Shown here: positions 12,442 to 16,972 of the stretch, one piece after another
Layout of the letters: every line of letters starts with the position of its first letter
How positions within the stretch are numbered: the stretch's first letter is position 1
Program-made: the position numbers and the translations under genes
Notes under the pieces: model-generated
Told to the model about the DNA's origin: nothing
Seen by the model: the letters and a program-made list of their open reading frames with translations, nothing else
The model's database searches: none
Assembly (NCBI GenBank): GCA_029863245.1
Contig: JAOTVV010000004.1
Span: 124,001 to 188,000, forward strand
Reading direction: 5' to 3'
DNA length: 64,000 nucleotides
Source of the DNA: Gemmatimonadota bacterium
Lineage (GTDB): Bacteria > Gemmatimonadota > Gemmatimonadetes > Gemmatimonadales > GWC2-71-9

Positions 12442-14019
12442 CTACGGCGTCCCGCCCTCCAGCCGCCGCAACTCGACTCTTCGGTTTTGCGCGCGCCCCG
12501 CGGCAGTCGCGTTGGTCGCGATCGGCTCGTCGGGGCCGTATCCCCGGGAGACCATTCGCGACGGGTCGACACCCTTCTGTGCGAGGTAGATCTCCACCGC
12601 CTGCGCGCGCTCCCGTGACAGCCGGCTATTGAGCGCTCGAGAGCCGGTGATGTCGGTGTGGCCGGCGATCTCCACCCGCACGTCGGAGTGCGCCAGCAGT
12701 GACGCCGCCACCTCGTCGAGAATCACGTACGACTCGCGCGTGAGGGCAGATCGACCGACCTCGAAGTTCACGCCGCGGAGGATGAGCGGCTGGACTTCAC
12801 CCCGCTCGACCACGAACAGGATGGGGCAGCCAATCGAATCGACGCGCTGCCCGGCCCTCGTGTCGGGGCACCGGTCGATGCTGTCGGGAACCCCGTCGCC
12901 ATCGGCGTCGGTGACGATCGCGCAGCCCAGAGCGTCCACCTGCCGGCCGGCCGGCGTGTTTGGGCACCGGTCGATCCCGTCAGGCACGCCGTCGCCGTCA
13001 GCATCCGTGGGACAGCCCGCGGCGTTCACCGCCACGCCTGTCGGTGTACCCGGGCACTGATCCAGGCCGTCCAGCACACCGTCGCCGTCGCCGTCCGAAG
13101 AACAGCCATTGACGTCGACCGTCGCTCCCCGCGGTGTGTCGGGGCATTGGTCGAGGCCGTCGAAGACGCCGTCCTCGTCTGCGTCGGTCGGACATCCGTT
13201 AGCGTCCACCAGGGCGCCCGCCGGCGTGTTGGGGCAGACGTCGACCCCGTCCACGACGGAGTCTCCGTCGGCGTCACTCGGGCAACCAGCAGGATCGACG
13301 ATCGCGCCGGCTGGTGTGCCGGGGCAGCTGTCCAACCCGTCGAAGACGAGGTCACCGTCGCCATCGAGCGGACAGCCGGCGCCGTCCACCAGCGCGCCAT
13401 AGGGCGTCCCGGGACACTCGTCGGTTGTGTTGGGGACGCCGTCGCGGTCGGAATCGCGCGGCGAGCCGCCGAAGGCGAACACCGAGAGACCCATTGCCGC
13501 ACCGAGGTTGAGAGCGCTCTCGTTGGGGGCGACCAGCTTCGAGGATGGCAGGTAGTCGAGTCGCCCTTCCACCCGCAACGCGGCCCGACCACCCAGCGAG
13601 GCGACGTTACCGAGAATGAGATGACCCCCGTCATCCCCAGTCTCCATGGCACCGCGATACTCGGAGTGGGTGTAGCCCGCACCGAGATAGAACTTGCCGA
13701 ACCCGATCTTCGGGGCGTAGAAGTACAGCGTACCGCCTAGGCGAGTCAGGTCGACATTACGGCCCGTGGTCTGTTGCTCGGCCTGGGTGAAGTCGCCGCG
13801 TGCCTCCACTGAGAAGTAGTGCGTGAGGAAAAGACCCAGCCGGCCACCGGCTCCGAACTCGGAGGACAGACCGACCGTCTGGTCGTCGTACTTGGTGTAC
13901 GTCCCCAGTAGGCCGAGTTCCAGCTGGCCGGGGCTCACGATCTGACCGAGGACGGATCCCGGGGTCAGGAGGAGGGAGCAGGCGGTTATCGCACCGCAGA
14001 GCGCTCTTCGGGGTCTCAT
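12442..14019 (-). CDS. OmpA-family outer membrane protein with beta-barrel-like N-terminus and thrombospondin type-3 repeats
   Basis: Signal peptide MRPRRALCGAITACSLLLTPGSVLG; multiple DxDGDGVxDxxDxCPxTPxG repeats; C-terminal VRVEIAGHTDITGSRALNSRLSRERAQAVEIYL...SRGYGPDEPIATNATAAGRAQNRRVEL. Confidence 0.93.
   Translation of the reverse strand: MRPRRALCGAITACSLLLTPGSVLGQIVSPGQLELGLLGTYTKYDDQTVGLSSEFGAGGRLGLFLTHYFSVEARGDFTQAEQQTTGRNVDLTRLGGTLYFYAPKIGFGKFYLGAGYTHSEYRGAMETGDDGGHLILGNVASLGGRAALRVEGRLDYLPSSKLVAPNESALNLGAAMGLSVFAFGGSPRDSDRDGVPNTTDECPGTPYGALVDGAGCPLDGDGDLVFDGLDSCPGTPAGAIVDPAGCPSDADGDSVVDGVDVCPNTPAGALVDANGCPTDADEDGVFDGLDQCPDTPRGATVDVNGCSSDGDGDGVLDGLDQCPGTPTGVAVNAAGCPTDADGDGVPDGIDRCPNTPAGRQVDALGCAIVTDADGDGVPDSIDRCPDTRAGQRVDSIGCPILFVVERGEVQPLILRGVNFEVGRSALTRESYVILDEVAASLLAHSDVRVEIAGHTDITGSRALNSRLSRERAQAVEIYLAQKGVDPSRMVSRGYGPDEPIATNATAAGRAQNRRVELRRLEGGTP
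12819..13455 (-). repeat. Seven tandem TSP3-type calcium-binding repeats within the OmpA-family gene
   Basis: Visible both in protein (D-x-D-x-D-G-v-x-D-g-x-D-x-C-P-x-T-P) and as a ~75-80 bp imperfect DNA period. Confidence 0.9.
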
Positions 14020-14148
14020 GGCACAGAATCTAAGATATTGGGGCGGGCGGAGCACGTCGGTGTCCTACCGCACACGTTGGCGGGTGCTCGTGGGCGGTCG
14101 TTAGCTTTCGACCTCGGTGTTACCACCTTCCAGCCCAGGAGGGCGTGC

Positions 14149-14382
14149 GTGCAGGTTTCGATTCAGTATTGTGGCGTCTGAGGGTACGAGCCCAGGGCCG
14201 CCAGTTTGGCGGCCGAGATCGAGCGTGATTACCCGAAGGCCAACGTGAAGCTCATCGAGTCGTCGGGTGGGGTGTTCGAGGTGCAGCTGGACAGCGACCT
14301 GGTGTTTTCGAAGAAGAGCCTCGGCCGCCATGCCGCACCCGGCGAGGTGATGCAACTGATACACGCGCGCCTCGGATCCTGA
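14149..14382 (+). CDS. SelW/SelT/SelH (Rdx) family selenoprotein; TGA at 14179-14181 read as selenocysteine
   Basis: GTG start after AGGAGGG (14137-14143); translation MQVSIQYCGVUGYEPRAASLAAEIERDYPKANVKLIESSGGVFEVQLDSDLVFSKKSLGRHAAPGEVMQLIHARLGS*; CxxU motif and FEV...FSKK motif of the Rdx family; missing from ORF track because TGA is treated as stop. Confidence 0.9.
14196..14214 (+). promoter_or_regulatory. Candidate bacterial SECIS hairpin GGCCGCC-AGTTT-GGCGGCC
   Basis: Perfect 7-bp stem, 5-nt loop with G among its first two bases, 14 nt after the TGA (21 nt from TGA to the loop). Confidence 0.8.
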
Positions 14383-14386
14383 CAGG

Positions 14387-16972
14387 GTGCCGGATCCGCC
14401 GACGCACCGCGTGGGCGGTCGCCCCCGTTCCCGAATCCGCGACCATTACCTCCCGCCCGATCGGGAGGCGTTCCGCCGTGCCGAGCCGCCAACCGGGCGG
14501 GTCATCGTCATCGCTCCCACTCGGGCCGCCTGCGAGACGATCGAGCTCGCGTGCAGGCTGCACCTTGAGACCGTGCTCGAGCGCGAGCACGGGGAAGAGA
14601 TTCGGCACCTCGCAGCCGGCCGAGCCGGGTTCGGGATCGTGGCGGGGACCGGAACCGGCAAGACGCTCTCGATTCGACCGATCGCGGAGGAGACCGTGGG
14701 CGTACCTCTCCGTATAGGAGTGGTGAATCGCGAACGCGAAGCGACACCCGAGACCCCCACGTGGAACGTCGTGATCGTGACGACCGGCATTGCCCGCCGC
14801 TGGTTCCAGGACGAGCTGATTCTCCCCGAGGACACGCTGGTCATGGACGAGATCCACCAGACGTCGGCGGAACTGGAGCTGTGCCTCGCTCTGGGCAAAC
14901 GGGTCGGCTGTCGATTCATCTGGCTGTCGGCGACCGTCGATCCATCGTTCTACGCCACCTACTTGAATTCGGCGGAGGTGCTCGAGACGAGCGCCTTCGA
15001 GCCGTCCCTCTCGGCGAAAGTGACGACGCACCACGTGCGGCCGCTGGAATTCCTCGACGAGCGCTTCGTCCGAGGGGTGGTCACAGAACAGCGTGGCGTT
15101 GCCGTCTTCCTCCCCACACGGGCGGAGGTCGAAGCGGTCGCACGGGAACTAGGCGGATCGTGGGGACGACTCCACGCCGCGTTCTATCATGGCGGCGAGC
15201 CGATTCGGGTGATCAAGCCGTTTCTGGACGGCACGGCCCAGAAGCCATTCGTGTTGGCCATGACGCAGGCCGGACAGTCGGCGCTCAACATCCACGGGCT
15301 CGACACGGTGGTGATCTACGACGCGTGCTACGCCAACCTGGTGCACCGCGGACGCAACGTGCTCGCACGCCAGTATCTGGGTCCGAACGAGATTTTGCAG
15401 ATGGCAGGTCGGGTCCATGGCCGCGTGGCCGATGGCCGAGTGCACATCCTCACGGATCGGGAGATCGATTTCTTCGCCCTCGAGCCGATCCCTCCCAGCT
15501 TCCAGTTGGCTGGTGACAGCGAGCGAGTGGCGCTGACGGCGGCGGCGCTTGGTGTGGACCTCACCGACCTCGATCTCCCCGTGCCACTCGATCGGCGAGC
15601 CTATGCGGCTGCGGTCCAGCGGCTCGACAGCCGCGGGATCGTCGACCACGGCAGACTCACCGACTATGGGCGCGACGTGGAGGCCATGCCGGTGGATCGC
15701 GCATGGGGTGAACTGTTGGTGCACGCCGATCCCGACATGGTCCCCTATGTGGCCGTGGCGGCGAGCGTCGATTCCCTCCACCGCATGACGCGCGACAACC
15801 CGGATCTGACCGGGGTGATCGCGTACGGAAGCGACCACCTGACGGCCTACAACTTGTACGCCGAGGCCGTCAACCAGTATGGAATCCTCGGCGAAGTGTA
15901 TGGCCTGCCGCGACATCTCTTTGCCGAAGGTATCGACGAGTGGGCCGCGGATCGCGGGGTGTTGGTGAAGGCGATCGAAGATGTGGCGCTCGGCATGGCG
16001 TCGGTGTACCGCACGCTCGAGATCCCCCTTCCGCGCGATCTCCCAACGGCAAACCGAGGTGTCGTGAAGCGGTTCCAAGATCTCATGGCGAAGATCATGC
16101 CGTTCGATCTCGTGATCGACGGCGAGACGGTCGACGGTGAGCGCGTTCGATTGTCGGACTCCTCACACTGTGACCGCCAGGGCGCCATTGCCGGATCGGC
16201 ACGGTACTTCGCCGATCGCTTCGGCGTGCCGCGCGGCGTCATCGAGGGTACGAACATCCCCTTCGATCTGATCAAGCGTTACTCGGCACGTACAGAGCCG
16301 CGTGTGGAGCTTCGGGAATTCCGGCGGGGAGAAGGTTTGGCCGTGGTCCGGGGCACGGAGTACTTCGGCTTTGTGCTCACGAGTGCGCGCGAGCCGCTGG
16401 TTGGCGCGTTCCCCACGGATCTCGCCGAGCGCTCGCGGCTGGCGCTGGCCGCGGCGATTCTCCAGGGGAAAACCAAGCACCCGAATCGCAAGAGTGTCGC
16501 GCGGGCTGGCGGGCACCTCTCCGAGTACTGGAGACGCTCGGGCGGACGCCTCCGAGAGGCCGAGCCGCAGAGCGTCCTGGAAGTGATCCACGCGCAGCTC
16601 CGAGACGTGAGCAGCTACGACGAGTTCCTGGAGACTCCCCTTGTGCTCGACGTCGACGAACTCGTGCCCGCCGAGCAGCGCTCGGCGCTCGACGAACTGC
16701 CGGGATCGGCTCGGGTGTTCGGCGACCGGGTTCCGATCGAGTATACCGTCGAGGGTGGCAGGGCGGTCGCATGGCTCAAGCTGCGTGAGAAGCAGGCGCA
16801 GCGGCTCCGTGCAAGGGATCTACCGGACATCGCGCCGGAACTCCGGTTCAGCGTCGTGCGCGGACGGCGAGAGATCGCACGGGCCGCAACGCTCGAGGAG
16901 CTTCGAGAATCGCTCAAGCGCCTCCAGGCCAAACGGCAGAAACCACCGTATCGGCGGCGGCGACGACGGTAA
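14387..16972 (+). CDS. DEAH/RHA-like ATP-dependent helicase
   Basis: GIVAGTGTGKTLSIRPI (Walker A), LVMDEIHQTSAELEL (DEIH), WLSATVDPSFY (SAT), AMTQAGQSALNIHGLDTVVIYDACY, QMAGRVHGR (motif VI-like). GTG start 4 nt after the selenoprotein stop; start uncertain. Confidence 0.85.
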   Translation: MPDPPTHRVGGRPRSRIRDHYLPPDREAFRRAEPPTGRVIVIAPTRAACETIELACRLHLETVLEREHGEEIRHLAAGRAGFGIVAGTGTGKTLSIRPIAEETVGVPLRIGVVNREREATPETPTWNVVIVTTGIARRWFQDELILPEDTLVMDEIHQTSAELELCLALGKRVGCRFIWLSATVDPSFYATYLNSAEVLETSAFEPSLSAKVTTHHVRPLEFLDERFVRGVVTEQRGVAVFLPTRAEVEAVARELGGSWGRLHAAFYHGGEPIRVIKPFLDGTAQKPFVLAMTQAGQSALNIHGLDTVVIYDACYANLVHRGRNVLARQYLGPNEILQMAGRVHGRVADGRVHILTDREIDFFALEPIPPSFQLAGDSERVALTAAALGVDLTDLDLPVPLDRRAYAAAVQRLDSRGIVDHGRLTDYGRDVEAMPVDRAWGELLVHADPDMVPYVAVAASVDSLHRMTRDNPDLTGVIAYGSDHLTAYNLYAEAVNQYGILGEVYGLPRHLFAEGIDEWAADRGVLVKAIEDVALGMASVYRTLEIPLPRDLPTANRGVVKRFQDLMAKIMPFDLVIDGETVDGERVRLSDSSHCDRQGAIAGSARYFADRFGVPRGVIEGTNIPFDLIKRYSARTEPRVELREFRRGEGLAVVRGTEYFGFVLTSAREPLVGAFPTDLAERSRLALAAAILQGKTKHPNRKSVARAGGHLSEYWRRSGGRLREAEPQSVLEVIHAQLRDVSSYDEFLETPLVLDVDELVPAEQRSALDELPGSARVFGDRVPIEYTVEGGRAVAWLKLREKQAQRLRARDLPDIAPELRFSVVRGRREIARAATLEELRESLKRLQAKRQKPPYRRRRRR

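Follow-up and report, generated by a model that had tools for sequence, protein, structure and literature searches.

The 64,000 nucleotides from a Gemmatimonadota bacterium analysed here (the window) raised the question whether a short frame interrupted by a TGA encodes a selenoprotein that ORF calling had passed over. The original prediction, made by eye from the raw sequence, placed a gene of the SelW/Rdx family at 14149-14382 and read its in-frame TGA as selenocysteine (Sec). The frame was found to read as predicted. With the TGA translated as U, the product is VQVSIQYCGVUGYEPRAASLAAEIERDYPKANVKLIESSGGVFEVQLDSDLVFSKKSLGRHAAPGEVMQLIHARLGS, and a second TGA comes next at 14380-14382 (Table 1). 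Counted from the end of AGGAGGG, 5 nt separate the predicted Shine-Dalgarno sequence from the GTG, so that a ribosome-binding site does lie about 5-6 nt before the start. No ordinary ORF in the ORF list covered 14149-14382, where only antisense or overlapping frames were listed, and the gene had indeed been missed by the ORF track.

Table 1. Positions in the window of the selW-like gene and its sequence elements
Feature	Position	Strand	Details
selW-like (Rdx family) selenoprotein gene	14149-14382	+	GTG start, 77 residues, Sec at residue 11, TGA stop
Shine-Dalgarno sequence AGGAGG	14137-14142	+	read in sequence; 6 nt between AGGAGG and GTG 14149
CxxU redox motif C8-G-V-U11	14170-14181	+	translation; aligned with CxxC homologues L079 and L037-L041 and with Cys of solved Rdx structures
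In-frame UGA, selenocysteine codon	14179-14181	+	TGA kept in nearly all listed homologues of the phylum and in 18/18 other GTDB loci
Bacterial SECIS hairpin	14196-14214	+	8-bp stem GGCCGCCA/UGGCGGCC, 14196-14203 with 14207-14214; apical loop GUU 14204-14206

The neighbouring frames were also inspected. Downstream, a frame at 14387-16972 encoding a helicase distantly like HrpB starts 4 nt past the stop of the selW-like gene. The divergent upstream neighbour at 12442-14055 on the minus strand carries, as judged by eye, many D-rich repeats of the type DGDGV.D..D.CP.TP and an OmpA-like C-terminal end. Downstream of the SelW genes of four relatives (L022, L054, L057 and L078) the next frame instead starts with MRIAIST or MRVAVSTGG and resembles 6-phosphofructokinase; at L078 this downstream frame starts MRIAISTGGGDAPGL.

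Membership in the Rdx family was evaluated with the read-through protein. Its match to the Pfam family Rdx (PF10262) reached 74.3 bits (E = 9e-21) against a cut-off of 22.6, and the NCBIfam model NF041051 SelTWH_Campy, named "SelT/SelW/SelH family (seleno)protein", matched residues 3-71 with 98.6 bits (cut-off 88). Both scores are far above chance. The CxxU/CxxC motif near the N-terminus is present as CGVU at residues 8-11. Homology to selenoprotein W (PDB 2npb) and to the Rdx structures 2ljk, 2fa8 and 3dex was detectable by sequence over most of the chain. No second Rdx gene was found in the window genome.

The TGA and its surroundings were then compared among relatives. The closest ones in GTDB belong to Gemmatimonadota (72-65% identity), followed by Acidobacteria, Chloroflexi, Actinomycetota, Myxococcales, Pirellulaceae and others, and relatives in other GTDB genomes had the TGA at the same codon in 18 of 18 cases. 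No DNA-level similarity to the gene was found on plasmids, which carried distant Rdx relatives of 31-37% identity at the protein level. An Rdx gene was present in about half of the Gemmatimonadota genomes (193 of 395). Among the approximately 150 Rdx matches listed from these genomes, all but five contained exactly one TGA; the five stop-free genes (L037-L041) belong to a distinct CxxC type (CRWLLRA), and two more stop-free genes (L079 and L085) occurred among weaker matches. The residue aligned with position 11 was U or C in homologues, the UGA being kept in Sec users and Cys being present in the others. The TGA falls exactly at the second redox position of the motif, as had been claimed, and the Cys/Sec pairs proposed as a check do exist. 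The codons 3' of the UGA are under purifying constraint, with pN/pS values of 0.33-0.60 between near-saturated pairs.

The occurrence of Rdx genes was related to that of tRNA-Sec, counted as real at E below 1e-9. Rdx was present in 172 of 279 genomes with tRNA-Sec and in 21 of 116 without it (odds ratio 7.3; Fisher p 8e-16, a descriptive value only, as the genomes share ancestry). Most of the 21 were draft MAGs in which SelB matched strongly. Four of the 21 (G051, G128, G320 and G363) had a Cys form of Rdx. About 17 had an Rdx gene of the TGA type or one outside the matches listed, with no tRNA-Sec detected, which counts against the Sec reading, but nearly all of these were draft MAGs with strong SelB. 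The complete, single-contig genome G128 had neither tRNA-Sec nor SelB of its own, and its Rdx gene L079 reads CVGC-NYQPRAAALAA, with Cys in place of Sec. A true selenoprotein is expected to show just this combination, Cys taking the place of Sec where the machinery has been lost.

The machinery for Sec incorporation was searched for in the window's own assembly (3.68 Mb in 75 contigs, 94% complete), and all the components that had been proposed for checking were present. The tRNA-Sec scored 75.7 bits, the next tRNA 45.9 bits, and ARAGORN assigned it the anticodon TCA. The genes selA (510.8 bits), selB (349.5 bits) and selD (366.4 bits) were, like the tRNA-Sec, above their curated cut-offs, and all three proteins were confirmed with NCBIfam. 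The selD gene (L071, G000:C46:58670-59602, plus strand) likewise has a single in-frame TGA, which falls on its catalytic residue (HGAGUACKLG with the TGA read as U), directly followed by a stable hairpin. With the selW-like gene and the TGA-bearing selD, the window genome thus has at least two selenoprotein genes.

Evidence beyond that of the original prediction came from a hairpin located 14 nt past the UGA. If the UGA is numbered 1-3, positions 18-25 pair with positions 29-36. The predicted folding energy was -17.1 kcal/mol (z -4.0), a value matched by none of 200 shuffled sequences. When the window gene was recoded synonymously, an equally stable hairpin arose in 14 of 1000 trials, and several relatives gave no significant result. 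The support from this test is moderate, since the residues AASLAA on their own predispose their codons to pair, and covariation and the loop codon were turned to in its place. When 42 distinct Sec genes were aligned without gaps, 93.2% of the cells held standard pairs, compared with 16-53% when the pairing was slid by 1-3 columns. Double, compensatory changes occurred in six of the eight stem pairs, and the covariation score of the stem was 0.317 versus 0.146 +/- 0.015 in shuffles. The G at loop position 26 was invariant in all 42 sequences. The hairpin still formed in L026 (HSIRLMEE) and L028 (KAVRATEE), although the peptides differ there. Against the Sec-specific reading, a hairpin with a different loop is also kept in the Cys homologue L079. 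The loop codon, the eighth past the UGA, was AGT in 21, GGT in 17, AGG in 5 and CGT in 1 of 44 genes, although in host genes of the window AGT makes up 9% of the Ser codons and GGT 18% of the Gly codons, both being minor ones. No Rfam matches were obtained in the window. In published bacterial SECIS elements (PMC1088965) a stem-loop closely follows the UGA, and its small apical loop contains a guanosine; the hairpin agrees with these features and is a canonical bacterial SECIS.

In bacteria it is established that SelB delivers Sec at UGA codons while attached both to Sec-tRNA-Sec and to the loop of the hairpin. The gene almost certainly encodes a SelW-like selenoprotein, a small single-domain Rdx (thioredoxin-like) oxidoreductase of the CxxU type, in which Sec would be inserted at the UGA by SelB and the SECIS. 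Translation would start at GTG 14149. At UGA 14179, SelB-GTP carrying Sec-tRNA-Sec would bind the hairpin through its GU apical loop, and selenocysteine would be delivered in place of termination by release factor 2. By analogy with its family, the protein probably acts in thiol/selenol redox chemistry, with Cys8 and Sec11 presumably cycling through a selenenyl-sulfide bond.

Insertion of an amino acid other than Sec, either by genome-wide recoding of UGA as Trp or by an unusual tRNA-Cys with the anticodon UCA, was considered very unlikely. Homologues do have Cys at this position, so that insertion of Cys would keep the function, but the gene's own stop is a TGA, which argues against simple reassignment of this codon, the genome has the full selABCD set, and a SECIS hairpin serves only insertion through SelB. 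This reading was rejected on these three points; a low level of Cys instead of Sec at residue 11 under selenium shortage is possible. That the gene is a pseudogene, a Cys-form SelW in which a nonsense mutation or an error in the sequence has turned TGC/TGT into TGA, has nothing in its favour except the single TGA in the frame and is scarcely credible: it is refuted by the identical TGA in considerably more than 100 Gemmatimonadota genomes and, beyond them, in several other phyla, a recurrence which in practice excludes a sequencing error, and is further opposed by the constraint on the codons past the TGA and by a covarying SECIS hairpin that would have no reason to exist.

Two paralogues were encountered during the comparison. 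L091 (G145:C55:638-853, plus strand) is a second Rdx gene with an ATG start and TGAs at both redox positions. Its translation runs RVLIEY, TGA, AE, TGA and EYQSHAARVAEEILTEHWE, with EYQ directly after the second TGA and FSKADTGRFP further on, and a hairpin with a GUGU loop follows the second TGA at the customary spacing. This gene possibly encodes a SelW with two Sec residues (UxxU). The search for UxxU paralogues covered 395 Gemmatimonadota genomes and 101 genomes of the family and found one in G145 only; a scan of viral contigs gave nothing useful. The divergent paralogue L092 (G048:C151:14099-14251, plus strand), which reads RYCAY, TGA and LSGLHAVRVAARLRREF, has one TGA and a hairpin and is under the Pfam cut-off. 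A 2026 review has an entry for SELENOW-like proteins (PF10262) with CxxU and one Sec and does not list UxxU for this family (PMC13188914).

SelB was above the curated cut-off in 282 of the 395 Gemmatimonadota genomes, which indicates that Sec use is common in this phylum. In the reviews searched, Gemmatimonadota were not named as Sec-using, and the titles and abstract openings found described no selenoproteins from Gemmatimonadota or Gemmatimonadetes; absence from a limited set of papers proves little. That Gemmatimonadota are a largely unreported Sec-using phylum, with SelW almost always in the Sec form and a genuine UxxU variant in G145, is put forward tentatively, as somewhat short of an even chance.

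The selW-like gene is a clean case of a selenoprotein gene that is invisible to ordinary ORF calling and was spotted by eye; its confirmation came from the machinery, the SECIS covariation and the replacement of Sec by Cys. Of the refuting outcomes set out with the original prediction, none of those examined was observed. The further claim that standard annotation would lose such a gene was correct for the ORF list, but as NCBI has a "(seleno)protein" model, modern annotation may not always be blind to it.

Knowledge of bacterial SelW-like selenoproteins goes back to 2005, when 48 genes made them the most abundant family in the set of Zhang, Fomenko and Gladyshev (PMC1088965). They were also reported in PMC1794560, and in the GOS survey of marine metagenomes no family was more abundant (427 genes; PMC2398784). 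The window gene is a real but unremarkable member of this best-known bacterial selenoprotein family. The window protein is homologous by sequence to eukaryotic selenoprotein W (2npb), C17orf37 (2ljk), Atu0228 (2fa8) and SAV_2001 (3dex), and the chains of 2fa8 and 2ljk have a Cys aligned with its U. In contrast to eukaryotic SelW, the SECIS of the window gene is of the bacterial type and lies in the coding region and not in the 3' UTR. From NF041051, whose cut-off the protein exceeds, no difference was seen. With the bacterial SelW-like selenoproteins (PMC1088965) the gene has in common the Rdx domain, the CxxU motif, a single Sec, a SECIS directly 3' of the UGA and a G in the small apical loop; it adds to them a new species and, judged from the reviews searched, a new phylum, and is structurally no different.
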